From the NCBI GenBank assembly GCA_018623675.1, contig JAAZVJ010000013.1, positions 1 through 12,113 on the forward strand: a stretch of DNA of 12,113 nucleotides, in the 5' to 3' direction. A program made the translations under genes and the position numbers. Positions 1,221-8,800 of the stretch are shown here, piece by piece. A model generated the notes under the pieces. The model did no database searches. It was not told where the DNA came from and worked only from the letters and a program-made list of their open reading frames with translations. This DNA is from Synechococcus sp. HW_metabat.54. GTDB lineage: Bacteria > Cyanobacteriota > Cyanobacteriia > PCC-6307 > Cyanobiaceae. Position 1 is the first letter of the stretch; each line of letters begins with the position of its first letter.

Positions 1221-1293
1221 AGCCGATGACCTGACTTGAACAGGCGACCCACGCTTTACGAAAGCGTTGCTCTACCAGCTGAGCTACATCGGC
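1221..1293 (-). tRNA. tRNA-Thr (anticodon CGT)
   Basis: Read on the - strand this 73-base stretch folds as a complete cloverleaf. The acceptor stem is GCCGATG/CATCGGC. The D arm has stem GCTC/GAGC with loop AGCTGGTA. The anticodon stem is ACGCT/AGCGT with loop TTCGTAA. The variable loop is GGGTC, and the T arm is GCCTG-TTCAAGT-CAGGT with one G-T pair. The anticodon CGT (plus-strand 1258-1260) reads the threonine codon ACG. The discriminator base is U and CCA is not encoded, so CCA must be added after transcription, as is usual in cyanobacteria. The gene is single, not part of a tRNA cluster, and no integrase or attachment-site duplication is visible beside it. Confidence 0.96.
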
Positions 1294-1334: not shown

Positions 1335-1589
1335 TTGAACGGTCAGAACCCCAATGGTCTCGATCCAGCCCTGAAAGAGCGTCTTCTGCGGGAATCACGC
1401 ACCCCCTGGAGAGGCCTCAGGAGGCTGCTCTGGGTTGCTCTCTTCGCCTCCGGGGGGTTGGGTCTGTTCGTGATGAGTTTCCGTGTCAGCGCCGGCGACA
1501 ATGTCGTGCTCACTGATCTGGCGATCCAGGTCGGCGCTGTGGTTCTCTTCGGTGGTTTGCTCTGGTTCGACCGTTCCCGTGACAGCTGA
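1335..1589 (+). CDS. Small two-helix membrane protein, LPA1-like/DUF3493 family
   Basis: An 84-aa protein with a basic N-terminal part containing ESRTPWRGLRR (residues 20-30), a membrane helix at about residues 31-49, a short loop and a second helix at about 62-78. The 'R-x-P-x-RGLRR' entry into helix 1 is characteristic of the DUF3493 family, which as I recall is the domain at the C-terminus of plant LPA1 and algal REP27, thylakoid proteins needed for D1 synthesis and photosystem II assembly or repair. A related role here is inference. The start is TTG at 1335, since a TAA at 1329-1331 closes the frame just upstream. Only 41 bases separate it from the divergent tRNA. Its last 65 codons (stop included) lie antisense to the tail of the membrane protein gene on the other strand, in exact codon register. 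Confidence 0.75.
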   Translation: MNGQNPNGLDPALKERLLRESRTPWRGLRRLLWVALFASGGLGLFVMSFRVSAGDNVVLTDLAIQVGAVVLFGGLLWFDRSRDS

Positions 1590-2435
1590 GTTTTCTGCGG
1601 TGAGCTGAACTGCATTGGAGTGATCCACTACCGGGATCGTGTCCGCTTCACCGGCTTCGTTCGACATTTCAGTGATGTCGTCACTGGTTGGTTCAGAAAT
1701 CGATGGCTCGGTGCTGCTCTCTTCGCTTTCTCCTAAAGCAACGCTGCTTTCCTGGGGCTGTTGGTCTGCATCTGCAGTGGCTGGAGAGGGAATGCCCGCG
1801 GTATTGGCTTCATCGGTCGACGAAGAGCTGGTCGATTTGATCGGGGGCTCCCAGTCCAGGGAGGGCATGTTGAGTAGCCCAAGTCCGAAGGACGTGGTGG
1901 AGCTTTGCAGCGCCGCGTCATTCAGTGGGCTCAAAGACTCGATCACACGCGCCTCGCGAGTGAGCAGCCATGCGCTCTGAACCAGTTGTTGCCATTGCCA
2001 GAGCAGCAAGGCCAACAAGGGCCCAGCGCAGAGAAGGCTCCCCAGCCGGCTGCCGTTGCTCAGGGGGGACAGGTCGGCAACGAGCAGCGCTGAGCTGTCG
2101 ATCCACCAAACGGTGAACAGAAGCGGAAGGGCTCCAGCGGCTTGAAGCAGCTTCAAGGGAAATGTGCCTTGAGCAGCACTGAGCTGTCGTTGTAAAGCAC
2201 TACGACCCATCAACGGCCGTCTGACCAGAAGCAGGGATCCCCAATCAGGGGGACGCTTCCAGAGCAGAAAGGTGGGAACGAGAACGCCAATGGCCCAGAT
2301 CAACACCCGTTCCAGGCCAGGGACGGGACCAACGTCCGCTGCCGCAAGCACCAGCCTGAGCAGCAGCAACTCCAACGGAATCACACCGATGGCAAGACAC
2401 TGAAGCCAGAGCAGGGGCTCGCGGCGGGAACTCAC
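1395..2435 (-). CDS. Membrane protein with acidic low-complexity tail, overlapping the DUF3493 gene
   Basis: A 346-aa protein. The N-terminal 160 residues hold four likely membrane helices, near 8-33, 43-59, 94-112 and 131-148. From about residue 205 to the end it is a Ser/Glu/Thr/Asp/Pro/Gln-rich tail, probably disordered. The last 64 residues contain 15 acidic residues, one Arg, no Lys and no aromatic residue. I recall a cyanobacterial family annotated 'low-complexity tail membrane protein' with this architecture; function is unknown. It starts at GTG, 26 bases after the infB stop, so it is probably the last gene of the rimP-nusA-ylxR-infB operon. The helical part is not antisense to any gene, which supports the frame as real. 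The stop TGA (1397-1395) is complementary to the Ser21 codon of the DUF3493 gene, so transcription from the two sides collides here. Confidence 0.75.
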   Translation of the reverse strand: MSSRREPLLWLQCLAIGVIPLELLLLRLVLAAADVGPVPGLERVLIWAIGVLVPTFLLWKRPPDWGSLLLVRRPLMGRSALQRQLSAAQGTFPLKLLQAAGALPLLFTVWWIDSSALLVADLSPLSNGSRLGSLLCAGPLLALLLWQWQQLVQSAWLLTREARVIESLSPLNDAALQSSTTSFGLGLLNMPSLDWEPPIKSTSSSSTDEANTAGIPSPATADADQQPQESSVALGESEESSTEPSISEPTSDDITEMSNEAGEADTIPVVDHSNAVQLTAENSAVTGTVEPEQTTEENHSADLDRQISEHDIVAGADTETHHEQTQPPGGEESNPEQPPEASPGGA

Positions 2436-2461: not shown

Positions 2462-5400
2462 TCAGGTGCTGAGCTTGCGGCGTTGGGTGACCATCTTGAA
2501 GCCTTCAATCCGGTCGCCTTCTTCCCAGTTAGCAAATCGATCACAGCCAATGCCGCACTCGAAGCCTGTGGCCACTTCCTTGACGTCGTCTTTGTTGCGA
2601 CGCAAGGAGTCGAGATCGCCCTCGTAGACCACTTCCTTGCCACGACGCACCCGCACTTTGCAGTTGCGTTGCAGCTTGCCGGTCGTGACGTAACAGCCAG
2701 CCACAGCGCTCTTGCCGATCGTGAAGATGGCGCGCACTTCCGCTTCTCCAAGAGGCTCTTCCACCAATTCGGGCTCGAGAAGACCCTCCATGGCGAGCTG
2801 AATGTCCTCCAGAAGCTTGTAGATCACGTCGTAATCACGCACATCCACGCCGGTGGCATCAGCAGCACGCTTGGCGCCGGAGGCCATTGAGGTGTTGAAG
2901 CCCACGATCACAGCACCGGATGCAGCGGCTAGGTCCACATCGGTTTCGGTGACTTCGCCCGGTGCCGACAGGAGAACACGCACCTGAACCTCGTCCTTCG
3001 GCAGTTGCTCGAGCGATCCGAGGATTGCTTCCACACTGCCTTGAACGTCGGCTTTGAGGATGAGGTTGAGCTCCTTGAGCTCGCCGTCGCTGGCCTGGCC
3101 AGACATGGCGGTGAGCGAAACGCGCCGTGATGCCATCTGCTGGGCCAGGCGAGTTGCACGGGCGTCGGAGGCGCGATCGCCCACAACGGCGCGGGCCGAT
3201 TTCTCGTCGGGGTAAACCTCGAACTCGTCGCCTGCCGTTGGCACTTCGCTGAAGCCAAGTGCTTCAACCGCAAAGGAAGGGCCAGCTTCCTTCACGCGTT
3301 TGCCGGCGTCATCGACCATGGCGCGAACCTTGCCGAGCACAGGGCCAGCTGCCAACACATCACCGGTTTTGAGGGTGCCGTTCTGGACCAGCAGGGTGGC
3401 CACTGGGCCTTTGGCTTTGTCGAGGTGCGCTTCGATCACGGTGCCTCGCGCCAGGCGGTCGGGGTTGGCCTGCAGGTCTTCCACTTCGGTGACCAGCAGG
3501 ATCATCTCGAGAAGTTTGTCGATGTTCTCGCCCTTGATGGCACTCACGGGAACCATCACGACGTCGCCACCCCATTCCTCTGCGAGCAGGTTTTGCTCCG
3601 AGAGCTCTTGCTTCACCCGGTCAGGAGAGGCCCCTTCCTTGTCGCACTTGTTGATGGCGACAACGATTGGAACTTCGGCCGCGCGGGCGTGGCTGATGGC
3701 TTCCAAGGTCTGAGGACGCACGCCGTCGTCAGCCGCTACCACCAACACCGCCACGTCGGTGACTTTGGTGCCTCGGGCACGCATGGCCGTAAAGGCTTCG
3801 TGACCAGGGGTGTCGAGGAAGGTGATTTTGCGGGGCTGTTCGTTGACGTCGATTTCGACCTGATAGGCACCGATGTGCTGGGTGATGCCACCGGCTTCGC
3901 CAGCCGCCACCCGTGCCTTGCGGATCGCGTCGAGCAAGCTGGTTTTGCCGTGGTCGACGTGGCCCATCACGGTGACCACGGGTGGACGACGGATCAAATG
4001 CTCGAGGTCTTTCTCCTCGATCATTTCGACGGTCTTCTTCGCCGCCTCTTCCACATCATCCTGGAGAACAGGAACACCGAATTCGTCGGCCACTGCCTCG
4101 ATGGTGGGCATGTCGAGGGTCTGGGTGACCGTGGCGATGATGCCCTTGAAGAACAGGGATTTGATGATCTCGGAGCTCTCCACGCTGAGCATGTCGGCGA
4201 GCTCCTGCACCGTGAGGTTGTCCTCCGGCACCACGATCATTTCGGGCCGTACCTGCTTGGCCTCCCGCGCTGCACGCAGCTCCATGGCGCGGCGACGCTG
4301 GCGCTGACGTGCCGTTTCTTTGCGGCGTTTGCGCACTGCAGCGACGGGTTTCGCTGTGGTGCGTTGCTGAGATTTCGGCTTGGCTGGACGGGCCAGGCTG
4401 GCCGACAGCACCATGGCCTCCTGTTCACCGGCGTAGCCGCCGGTTTGTGCAGCAAAGGCGTCGTCGTTCTCGCCAATGATGTGAACCTTCTGGCGCTGCT
4501 TCTGAGGCGAGCGGCTGCGCAAGGCTTCCAGCTTGGCGCTGTCATCCCAGTCGGGACGTCCAGGACGCCGTTGTCCGCCGGCACCTGGAGCGGGTCGGTA
4601 GCCCGGACGACGGGGTGCCGCGGCAGGGGATGGAGGCGTAGGCCTCGACACGGGAGGCGTGGCCTTGCGTTCCGGACCATCCGCCGTGCGAGGACCGACA
4701 GTGCTGCCATCGGGACGGCGTGGCGGCGGAGCACCAGGGCGGCCACTGGGTTTCTGCAGCTGCATGAGCTGGCCCGGTGCGACGGGTTTGCGCATGCCAC
4801 TGGGCATTCCAGGGCGGGTTGGTGCAGCAGGCCGACCGTTGCTGTCGCGTCCGCCAGCTCCCTGGCCATCACGGCGGATGGGCTTGCCCACCAGCTCCAC
4901 AGGGTTAGCAGCTGGTCGAGGACCGCCCGGTCGATTCACGCCTGCGCGGCCTGCTCCTGGGCGTGAGGGAGCGCCTGGTCGTTGTGGAGCACCAGGCCGT
5001 TGCGGCATGGCTGGCCGCTGATTTTGATTAGGGGCCTGCACAGGGCGTGGGCTGACGCCAGGACGCTGGCCTTGTGCTGACCGGGTGGGAGCTCCAGGTG
5101 GTCGTTTGGGTTGTGGACGACCCACAAGTTCCGGCCTGGACACCGGTTTCTGCGGGCTGGGAATCGTGCGTTTGACCGGTGCTGGAGCCGAGGGGCGGGG
5201 GGCTCCACCACCCTTCGCCTGAACAGGACGTGGGCTTGGGGTGAGTGGCTTGTTCGCCACGGGCTTTGGACTCGGCGCCGCCGGGCGAGACGGGGGCGCG
5301 GATGGTTTGCTGCTGGGTGCTGCAGCCGCAGGACGCGCTGGAGGAGCCTTCGCAGCTGCTGCGGGCTTCGCGGCGGCTGGTGCTGCCTTGACCGGTGCAG

Positions 5401-5827
5401 GCCGGCTGACTGGAGCACTGGCTGCGGCCTGACGCGCGACCGGTTGCTTCGGAGCTGCTGATGTGGCTGGCTTGGCCGCAGGCGCAGAAGCCGCCGGACG
5501 GGCCGGTGCTGGCTGGGGCTTCGCGGCAGGTGGCTTCACCGGTGCAGGAGCTGCCGGCTTGGCTGCAGCTGGTGCCGATGGCGCTGCTGGGGCGTCGGCC
5601 TTCTTCACAGACAAAATCGCTTTGCCCGCCGGCGGCTTCGCGGCTGTTGCAGGCTTGCTGCCCTGCTTCAGCAGGCTGCGAATTTTGCCTGCTTCTGCCT
5701 CACTGATGGAGCTGCTGTGGCTTTTTGCCGCAATGGACAGCTTTTCAGCGGCATCCAGCACGTCTTTGTTGTCCAGGCCCATGTCCTTGGACAGCTCATA
5801 AATTCTGACTTTGCCGCTGCTGGTCAT
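2462..5827 (-). CDS. infB: Translation initiation factor IF-2
   Basis: A GTPase that brings fMet-tRNA to the 30S subunit and promotes 50S joining. The 1121 residues comprise an IF2_N helical module (about 1-55), a Pro/Ala/Arg/Gly-rich linker of roughly 400 residues, a basic helical stretch (about 500-530, with [15 protein letters not shown]), a second IF2_N module (about 535-600), the G domain, and the C-terminal beta-barrel, domain III and tRNA-binding barrel. G motifs are complete: GHVDHGKT (622-629), [16 protein letters not shown] (672-677), NKCD (726-729) and SAI. The catalytic His of DTPGH is present. E. coli IF-2 is about 890 residues; the excess is the N-terminal linker, as is usual in cyanobacteria. 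The start is ATG, with GGAG seven bases upstream. The gene follows ylxR by 72 bases and precedes the tailed membrane protein gene by 26 bases. Confidence 0.98.
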
Positions 5828-8272: not shown

Positions 8273-8800
8273 TCAGTGACAGCCTTGTACTGAAATGCGG
8301 TAGCTGAAGCCTGTGGCGCCAGGGTCCTTGTTGGCTCCGACCCGAAAATTCACCTGACTGACGGCTTTCCCTGAAGGGGCGGTGAATGGGCCGAACTGAG
8401 CTCCGCTACCAGTGGGTGGCTTCATCGCTTGGTTCACAACCTTGAGGTTCCCTCCATCTGTGAACTTCAGGAAGGCTTCCACGGGATAGGAACCGGGATT
8501 GCTGTCCGTTGAATCAGCGGTGAAGAAAAGCTTGAACGTCCGGTAGGGCTTGTTGACCACAAAATCGGTGTTCCAGTTCGTGCGGCCGACAGCCCGACCG
8601 ATCAACCCTTTGGGGCGTTCGACCTTTTTCTTGACGATCCAGGGCTTCGGGCCGTTGCCGTTCCCGCCAATGGGCATCAAAAACTCGCAAGCGGCTTCGG
8701 CTCCTGCCCCTGCCAGCAGAGCACCGATCGCCAGACCAGTGAGGGCGCTGAAGACGGTTTGACGGTGGGACAGCACGGCATTCAGTTGATCTCCTTTCAC
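8273..8800 (-). CDS. Predicted secreted protein of unknown function
   Basis: A 175-aa protein that I do not recognise as a characterised family. The N-terminus looks like a Sec signal peptide: a basic SHR, a hydrophobic core (residues 16-34) and likely cleavage in the AEAA stretch at residues 34-37. The mature part begins with C38 and ends with C174, the only two cysteines, which could pair as a disulfide. It contains a basic segment (KPWIVKKKVERPKG) and then alternating polar and hydrophobic stretches (FKLFFTADSTDSNPG, GFSYRISVQGC) that suggest a beta-sandwich. The residues before C38 (EAA) do not make a good lipobox. The GTG at 8800 is followed by AAAGGAG inside the frame, so the in-frame GTG at 8776 (residue 9, VLSHRQ) may be the real start; its spacing from that site, 14 bases, is long. 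Export to the periplasm or outside is inference. Confidence 0.65.
   Translation of the reverse strand: MKGDQLNAVLSHRQTVFSALTGLAIGALLAGAGAEAACEFLMPIGGNGNGPKPWIVKKKVERPKGLIGRAVGRTNWNTDFVVNKPYRTFKLFFTADSTDSNPGSYPVEAFLKFTDGGNLKVVNQAMKPPTGSGAQFGPFTAPSGKAVSQVNFRVGANKDPGATGFSYRISVQGCH

Follow-up and report, generated by a model that had tools for sequence, protein, structure and literature searches.

Sense/antisense coding in a shared register is the subject of the Rodin-Ohno hypothesis, which reportedly concerns the ancestral aminoacyl-tRNA synthetases. Long overlaps between bacterial genes are often annotation errors, and the antisense genes that have been described are typically young and, according to an excerpt of PMC7457138, probably less constrained. 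In the available part of PMC2478687, 54 of 178 long convergent overlaps are given as possibly real, most of them being conserved only in very close species. In E. coli O157:H7, protein coding antisense to another gene has been proposed for pop, ano, asa and laoB, of which pop and ano are embedded, or nearly so, in the other gene, as the excerpted reports describe them.

The gene pair described here lies in a window (the whole stretch of DNA analysed) of 12,113 nucleotides from Synechococcus sp. HW_metabat.54, and consists of a DUF3493 gene on the + strand and a colliding_TM gene, here CTM, on the - strand. Like the set in the available part of PMC2478687, the pair forms a convergent overlap longer than 60 bp, and its register matches the phase (123:321) in the excerpt of PMC2174442, in the notation of that source as read here. 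Unlike the overlaps covered by that part of PMC2478687, the DUF3493/CTM overlap (at least 60 nt) is present in 140 loci belonging to 62 divergence clusters, and shows residue-specific codon selection. Unlike the E. coli O157:H7 cases, as excerpted, two conserved families share their 3' ends, and the evidence is comparative instead of coming from ribosome profiling. The geometry is that of Rodin-Ohno coding, at least in the excerpts consulted, with each codon opposite its own reverse complement; unlike in that hypothesis, the register appears to be maintained in a gene pair of living organisms. A literature search returned, among the matches listed, no paper on the DUF3493/CTM pair or its codon-level selection.

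The - strand protein of the window is a member of NF033183 (colliding_TM, low-complexity tail membrane protein), a family annotation that the sequence-only reading had pointed to, and the name of the model suggests that the gene collision was already known to NCBI curators. The NF033183 model covers the membrane domain, with the tail and the overlap lying outside it, and the register and codon-level selection are absent from the NF033183 descriptions examined. The + strand protein is a member of PF11998 (DUF3493; Low PSII accumulation 1 / Rep27), a family named after plant LPA1. According to the part of PMC4754418 available, LPA1 is a double-pass thylakoid protein with two TPR repeats that interacts with D1 and acts as a photosystem II assembly factor, the role in photosystem II accumulation being known for LPA1 only. 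In comparison, the DUF3493 protein of the window has 84 aa and no room for TPR repeats. The membrane part of plant LPA1 is presumably the DUF3493 domain.

Two convergent genes in one codon register

The DUF3493 gene (1335..1589, + strand; TTG start, 84 aa, 255-nt ORF) encodes an LPA1/REP27 domain of two long helices and matches PF11998 with an E value of 3.1e-20 and 72.6 bits (gathering cut-off 27.1); its AF2 model, with a mean pLDDT of 86.3, places the helices at residues 11-52 and 59-83. The CTM gene (1395..2435, - strand; GTG start, 346 aa) matches NF033183 (E 5.3e-57, 192.5 bits, cut-off 90), the match to the 188-position model being confined to CTM residues 5-190. The family match together with the AF2 model delimits the membrane domain (1866..2423, - strand). 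From about residue 190 a low-complexity C-terminal tail follows, whose acidic part ahead of the overlap, recognised by composition and AF2, occupies 1590..1865 (- strand). In the AF2 model of CTM (the protein without residue 1) pLDDT per ten-residue block is 86-96 up to residue 180 and below 60 past residue 200, the prediction for CTM being a confidently modelled helical domain with a disordered tail behind it. Compared with PDB folds, the CTM model gave no match at E <= 0.001 (best E 1.9) and the best match of the DUF3493 model had an E value of 1.7, while sequence searches of solved structures returned two weak matches for each protein.

Immediately upstream of CTM, outside the overlap, an ORF at 2462..5827 (- strand) has a translation that we recognise as IF2 and take to be infB; 58 of the 65 loci searched carry the C-terminus of infB on the CTM strand, the remaining 7 being without a match in the flanks. 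A tRNA-Thr (CGT) gene at 1221-1293 (- strand) lies just upstream of the DUF3493 start, with a gap of about 40 nt. Elsewhere in the window, whose GC content is 57-66% across all twelve 1-kb blocks, 8273-8800 (- strand) encodes a 175-aa protein with a signal-like N-terminus that has no Pfam match and an NCBIfam match below the cut-off only.

The two genes are convergent and have 195 nt in common (1395..1589, both strands), both stops included and with coincident codon boundaries: DUF3493 codons 21-84 and the stop on the + strand, the last 64 CTM residues and the stop on the - strand. Position 3 of each DUF3493 codon is position 1 of a CTM codon, and position 2 stands opposite position 2. The CTM stop TGA (1395..1397, - strand) is opposite a DUF3493 Ser TCA. 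The sequence-only reading had described this overlap, its exact codon register, its extent over 76% of the small gene (195 of the 255-nt ORF) and the facing TGA and TCA codons, and the ORFs, families and boundaries all confirm it. That reading had also set hydrophobic residues against acidic ones. Facing residues are anticorrelated in hydropathy (r = -0.76, 63 pairs in the window), part of which the register produces by itself, since an NTN codon can only stand opposite a NAN codon; the acidity, on the other hand, goes beyond synonymous resampling, the window overlap (locus L001) encoding 15 acidic and 1 basic residues vs 8.3 and 7.2 expected. The opposite physical demands of the two proteins, which the sequence-only reading had stressed, do not conflict: hydrophobic codons face polar ones anyway, so that a disordered polar tail is cheap in this register. 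Selection is needed for an acidic tail as opposed to a basic or neutral one, and the third bases of DUF3493 set that. The openness of the antisense frame in the window is within chance for a GC-rich genome (P = 0.52 under its own codon usage); it is the charge of the tail, not the openness of the frame, that exceeds chance. A further 90-aa ORF (1343-1615, - strand), in the second antisense frame of the DUF3493 stretch, is strongly basic and probably due to chance.

Distribution of the overlap and antisense stops

A profile search gave CTM matches in 68 of 244 genomes drawn from across the phylum, 66 of them above the cut-off (weak matches in G030 and G005 and a second match in G123 were left out), and in 176 of 300 genomes of the window's family, 167 above the cut-off. 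Family loci were taken from the matches listed, plus further matches in 12 genomes; G352 and G254 (near contig end) were left out. Outside the window's family, DUF3493 was absent from the 1-3 kb beside CTM in 51 of 52 loci, within the sensitivity of the profile built here, the sole exception being L224, in which CTM and DUF3493 are 58 nt apart. Three CTM relatives outside the family, L218, L026 and L219, have tails of 706, 370 and 254 residues, with no DUF3493 neighbour found; L255 likewise has CTM and no DUF3493 match in the flank.

Among the matches listed there are 158 non-duplicate convergent DUF3493/CTM loci (L224 and loci from family genomes or named records, mostly titled Synechococcus, Synechococcaceae or Cyanobium), after 21 loci had been dropped as identical to another across 230 nt of DUF3493; L045, L046 and L105, where the CTM frame runs off the contig with no DUF3493 in view, were not counted. 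The codon tables have 155 rows, a filter for N letters having removed 3 of the 158 loci. Overlap and phase are conserved among these relatives, as the sequence-only reading had surmised: 147 of the 158 loci overlap, by 51-222 nt, and in all 147 the length is divisible by three and the genes are in register. Eleven further loci, nine with a shortened CTM and two full-length, are in register as well. In the shortened group (L257-L265, from the three genera g127, g134 and g144) part of the membrane domain is lost, and all nine keep an in-register overlap of 114-231 nt. The overlap is thus common to many picocyanobacteria and comprises up to about 70 shared codons; the uniform phase is probably inherited and may reflect one origin.

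A quick tree of 155 CTM domains implies at least 8 gains or losses of the overlap. The sequence-only reading had named a broken tail beside a persisting DUF3493 frame as the mark of a read-through accident; this situation is found in a minority, 11 of the 158 loci, and the overlap is therefore dispensable over long times and not essential. The phase is kept although the CTM end has moved, the stop lying opposite one DUF3493 column in 49 loci and opposite a different one in 58. An in-register stop can face only TCA, TTA or CTA. The first stop column holds Ser TCA in all 49 loci whose CTM ends there, vs Ala in 89 of the 106 loci whose overlap stops short of it (18 Ala and 18 Ser among 41 added loci, namely CTM-less, shortened-CTM and two more), so that the stop codon of the neighbour seems to dictate one residue of DUF3493.

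TTA, CTA and TCA are rare in GC-rich genomes, and the annotated tail might therefore be a meaningless open frame arisen by chance. The P value of the window run agrees with this, and so do a 513-aa in-register antisense ORF in infB and the whole antisense of rpiA, which are likewise open; on account of this P value and these controls, openness was rejected as evidence in GC-rich genomes. AT-rich relatives behave differently, those bearing CTM keeping the frame open against expectation. As zero stops inside the overlap is true by construction (as is zero stop-creating changes in the pair comparison), the analysis used only the chance of a run of that length or longer, together with CTM-less controls. 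In each of the seven AT-rich genomes that lack CTM, the antisense of the final 62 DUF3493 codons contains 3-9 stops, vs 4.4-9.1 expected from the genome's own codon usage. The CTM-bearing, AT-rich loci L229 (P 0.0039), L153 (P 0.003), L163 (P 0.0079) and L141 (P 0.0078) have stop-free runs of 49-64 codons, with a GC3 similar to or somewhat above that of the CTM-less genomes, and the genera coded g6 and g133 each include both CTM-less and CTM-bearing genomes. The runs are weaker in L202 (P 0.022), L262 (P 0.039), L198 (P 0.086) and L175 (P 0.19), and five CTM-bearing genomes with GC3 >= 0.56 have P values of 0.077-0.72; 7 of the 13 scored CTM-bearing genomes stand at P >= 0.077, mostly GC-richer ones or those with a short overlap. 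Judged from these runs and the CTM-less controls, the antisense frame of AT-rich relatives is more than merely open.

Composition separates the overlap from the control frame, the infB antisense stretch having fractions of.10 for D+E,.10 for K+R and.11 for C, W, Y and F vs.24,.02 and 0 in the overlap. The infB antisense ORF itself (3425-4966, + strand), which is in register inside infB, looks like a chance open frame because its composition and facing codons are ordinary. As a full account of the tail, chance openness was rejected on the AT-rich relatives and the composition of the control ORF, and we consider it scarcely credible.

Codon choice in DUF3493 and the charge of the CTM tail

Codon choice in DUF3493 differs inside and outside the overlap. 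Leu CTC, which faces Glu, accounts for 591 of 912 CTC and CTG codons (CTG faces Gln) in the overlap vs 163 of 637 outside and 1368 of 5479 in the CTM membrane domain; of the scorable clusters, 55 of 58 have a share in the overlap above the background and 42 of 47 one above the share outside. Clusters are single-linkage groups with a CTM-domain 4-fold divergence below 0.30, and are neither species nor proven independent lineages. Val GTC (facing Asp) is taken over GTG (facing His) in 248 of 295 cases in the overlap and 25 of 141 outside, a comparison scorable in only 3 clusters (2 for, 1 against); in the same DUF3493 segment the fractions of Val GTC and GTG are.59 and.22 where it is overlapped (58 loci) vs.11 and.74 where it is not (66 loci). 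Phe TTC (facing Glu) prevails over TTT (facing Lys) in 428 of 491 cases vs 42 of 61 outside, and Ile ATC (facing Asp) over ATT (facing Asn) in 221 of 268 vs 33 of 65. Ala codons facing Arg or Cys are avoided in the overlap, and so are Ser TCG and TCA, facing Arg or stop. A logistic fit that gives every alignment column its own term and includes a locus background bias (1402 codons, 15 columns, 69 clusters) attributes to the overlap a C-over-G log-odds of 2.84 (cluster bootstrap CI 2.49-3.49). The codon-register logic that the sequence-only reading had put forward for testing is thus borne out among the relatives.

Read antisense, DUF3493 codons 33-56 from the end are 26.9% acidic in the 58 overlapped loci and 5.9% in the 66 others. 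The non-overlapped segment has 3-8% D+E and is acidic in none of the three antisense frames; in the overlapped segment the in-register frame has 27% D+E and the other two 6-7%, with 24% and 40% Lys/Arg. Of the 11 loci without the overlap, 9 are scorable over the final 22 codons, and in 8 of these the C-over-G preference is gone, as expected under relaxed dual coding but not after a read-through accident. Tree contrasts for overlap loss over these 22 codons gave 5 for and 0 against in 117 of 200 pairings (mean 4.6 vs 0.1), and with only 5 independent pairs a sign test cannot attain 0.05; over wider stretches, with 6 pairs, 4.2 were for and 0 against (27 codons) and 2.3 for and 0 against (45 codons). 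A contrast of long with short overlaps at codons 33-56, with only 5 independent tree pairs (about 2 for, about 1 against), was replaced by the within-column, cluster-bootstrapped and overlap-loss tests. We are confident that the 195-nt stretch represents a true dual-coding overlap, in which the codon choice of DUF3493 would be selected so that the antisense CTM tail reads acidic.

Synonymous resampling of the 140 loci with an overlap of 60 nt or more (62 clusters) bears on the same point. The tail has on average 10.5 acidic residues vs 5.5 expected, 1.6 basic vs 5.0, and 0.1 Cys or aromatic residues vs 1.6; acidic z is positive in 61 of 62 clusters, and acid-minus-base has P<0.05 in 107 of 140 loci. 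The acidic excess is absent in some overlapped loci, such as the AT-rich L153 (P 0.77) and L229 (P 0.31), and L103 (P 0.28).

A third-base shift could also be an effect on nucleotides or RNA (a purine-rich CTM mRNA, duplex or 3'-end stability) without any selection on the tail protein, and a third-base term alone does account for part of it, lowering the negative log-likelihood from 6831 to 6260 and persisting in the joint model beside the class of the facing residue. That class by itself does better than the base, however (5903), and adds strongly to it (5804 with both). Acidic facing residues are preferred to neutral polar ones (+1.04, CI 0.79-1.31), basic ones (-1.17) and Cys/Trp/Tyr/Phe (-2.59) are avoided, and proline is slightly favoured (+0.40). 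Codons ending in T, moreover, shift in opposite directions by the residue faced: they increase opposite Ser (Ala GCT.50 vs.15, Thr ACT.36 vs.13) and decrease opposite Lys (Phe TTT.13 vs.44; Leu CTT slightly,.07 vs.10), and Ile ATT, facing Asn, is also less used in the overlap. The codon shift thus reads as amino-acid-specific and not only a base skew, and a purely nucleotide-level cause is very improbable.

At 4-fold sites (134 pairs), antisense changes that alter charge are rarer than those that keep it, with a ratio of 0.67 (0.59-0.76) in the overlap and 0.88 (0.80-0.96) outside. Over all 70 pairs synonymous divergence is about a third lower in the overlap (0.217 vs 0.318), though hardly within the long-overlap group (0.222 vs 0.234, 25 pairs), and the constraint on the tail sequence is therefore weak; the rate reduction, moderate over all pairs and nearly absent in that group, was set aside as main evidence. 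Relative to the CTM domain, the divergence of the same DUF3493 segment has a ratio of 1.13 where it is overlapped vs 1.72 where it is not. Selection is visible on both frames, for the tail as the residue-specific codon shift and for DUF3493 as conservation of positions 1 and 2, whose rates of change in the overlap (.091 and.058) are about as low as those outside (.101 and.054; 70 pairs), with somewhat more change in the overlap for the most divergent set. Among close pairs, most of the changes in overlapped codons fall at position 3 of DUF3493, i.e. CTM position 1, and the exact tail sequence therefore drifts while its charge is held.

The tail might then be translated without a positive role, selection only keeping a read-through tail harmless (soluble, not basic, free of Cys and aromatic residues and of an early stop). 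That Cys/Trp/Tyr/Phe and basic residues are strongly avoided, that the tail sequence is weakly constrained and that the overlap is lost in 11 of 158 loci would all be expected of such a tail. It would not be expected that the acidic class is favoured over the neutral polar one, nor that the tail is acidic ahead of the overlap too. D+E make up 21% there (111 loci) and 25% within the overlap, so that the tail keeps its chemistry on entering the overlap. Long acidic tails persist in most of the 11 loci without overlap (L119 and L139 are almost tailless); acidity therefore looks like a property of the protein. Mere harmlessness is in our estimation rather unlikely. Most likely, on the comparative evidence, the CTM tail is translated and would be selected for an acidic, disordered composition, not for an exact sequence.

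A putative second message in synonymous codons

We propose that the + strand encodes the DUF3493 helical hairpin and that the - strand, in the same register, would encode the last 64 CTM residues. Each hydrophobic NTN codon of DUF3493 faces a polar NAN codon, which leaves the hairpin intact and lets the antisense strand read as a disordered polar tail. The base left free at the third position of a DUF3493 codon is also the first base of a CTM codon; only in this register do the two coincide, and silent changes can therefore replace Gln by Glu and His by Asp. CTC, GTC, TTC and ATC would be preferred because they stand opposite Glu or Asp, and codons opposite Lys, Arg, Cys, aromatic residues or stop would be avoided.

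The comparison of relatives shows a conserved register, a codon shift tied to the overlap and specific to the amino acid, and, in AT-rich genomes, avoidance of stops. From this we infer translation of the CTM tail in vivo, and that its acidity, not its exact sequence, would matter. The tail would have arisen when an ancestor of the family lost the CTM stop, and the positive-inside rule suggests that it is cytoplasmic. A shared thylakoid role of DUF3493 and CTM, prompted by the LPA1 family name, is only a guess.

The DUF3493/CTM pair provides a natural and tractable case of in-register sense/antisense coding, in which the same DNA is apparently selected as two proteins, a rare situation. The design is simple, a helical hairpin opposite a disordered polar tail being an easy combination in this register. 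It is also a warning that the synonymous sites of such genes should not be treated as neutral. In this case up to about 70 codons are common to two conserved families, in many species of a widespread cyanobacterial family, and the antisense reading leaves a residue-specific mark on synonymous codons that tracks the overlap. Tentatively, and with some reserve, the silent positions of DUF3493 may be a working second message, kept in strict register over much of picocyanobacterial history and setting the charge of the cytoplasmic tail of CTM; a function of that tail, for example at the thylakoid membrane with DUF3493, might be what locks the two genes together.
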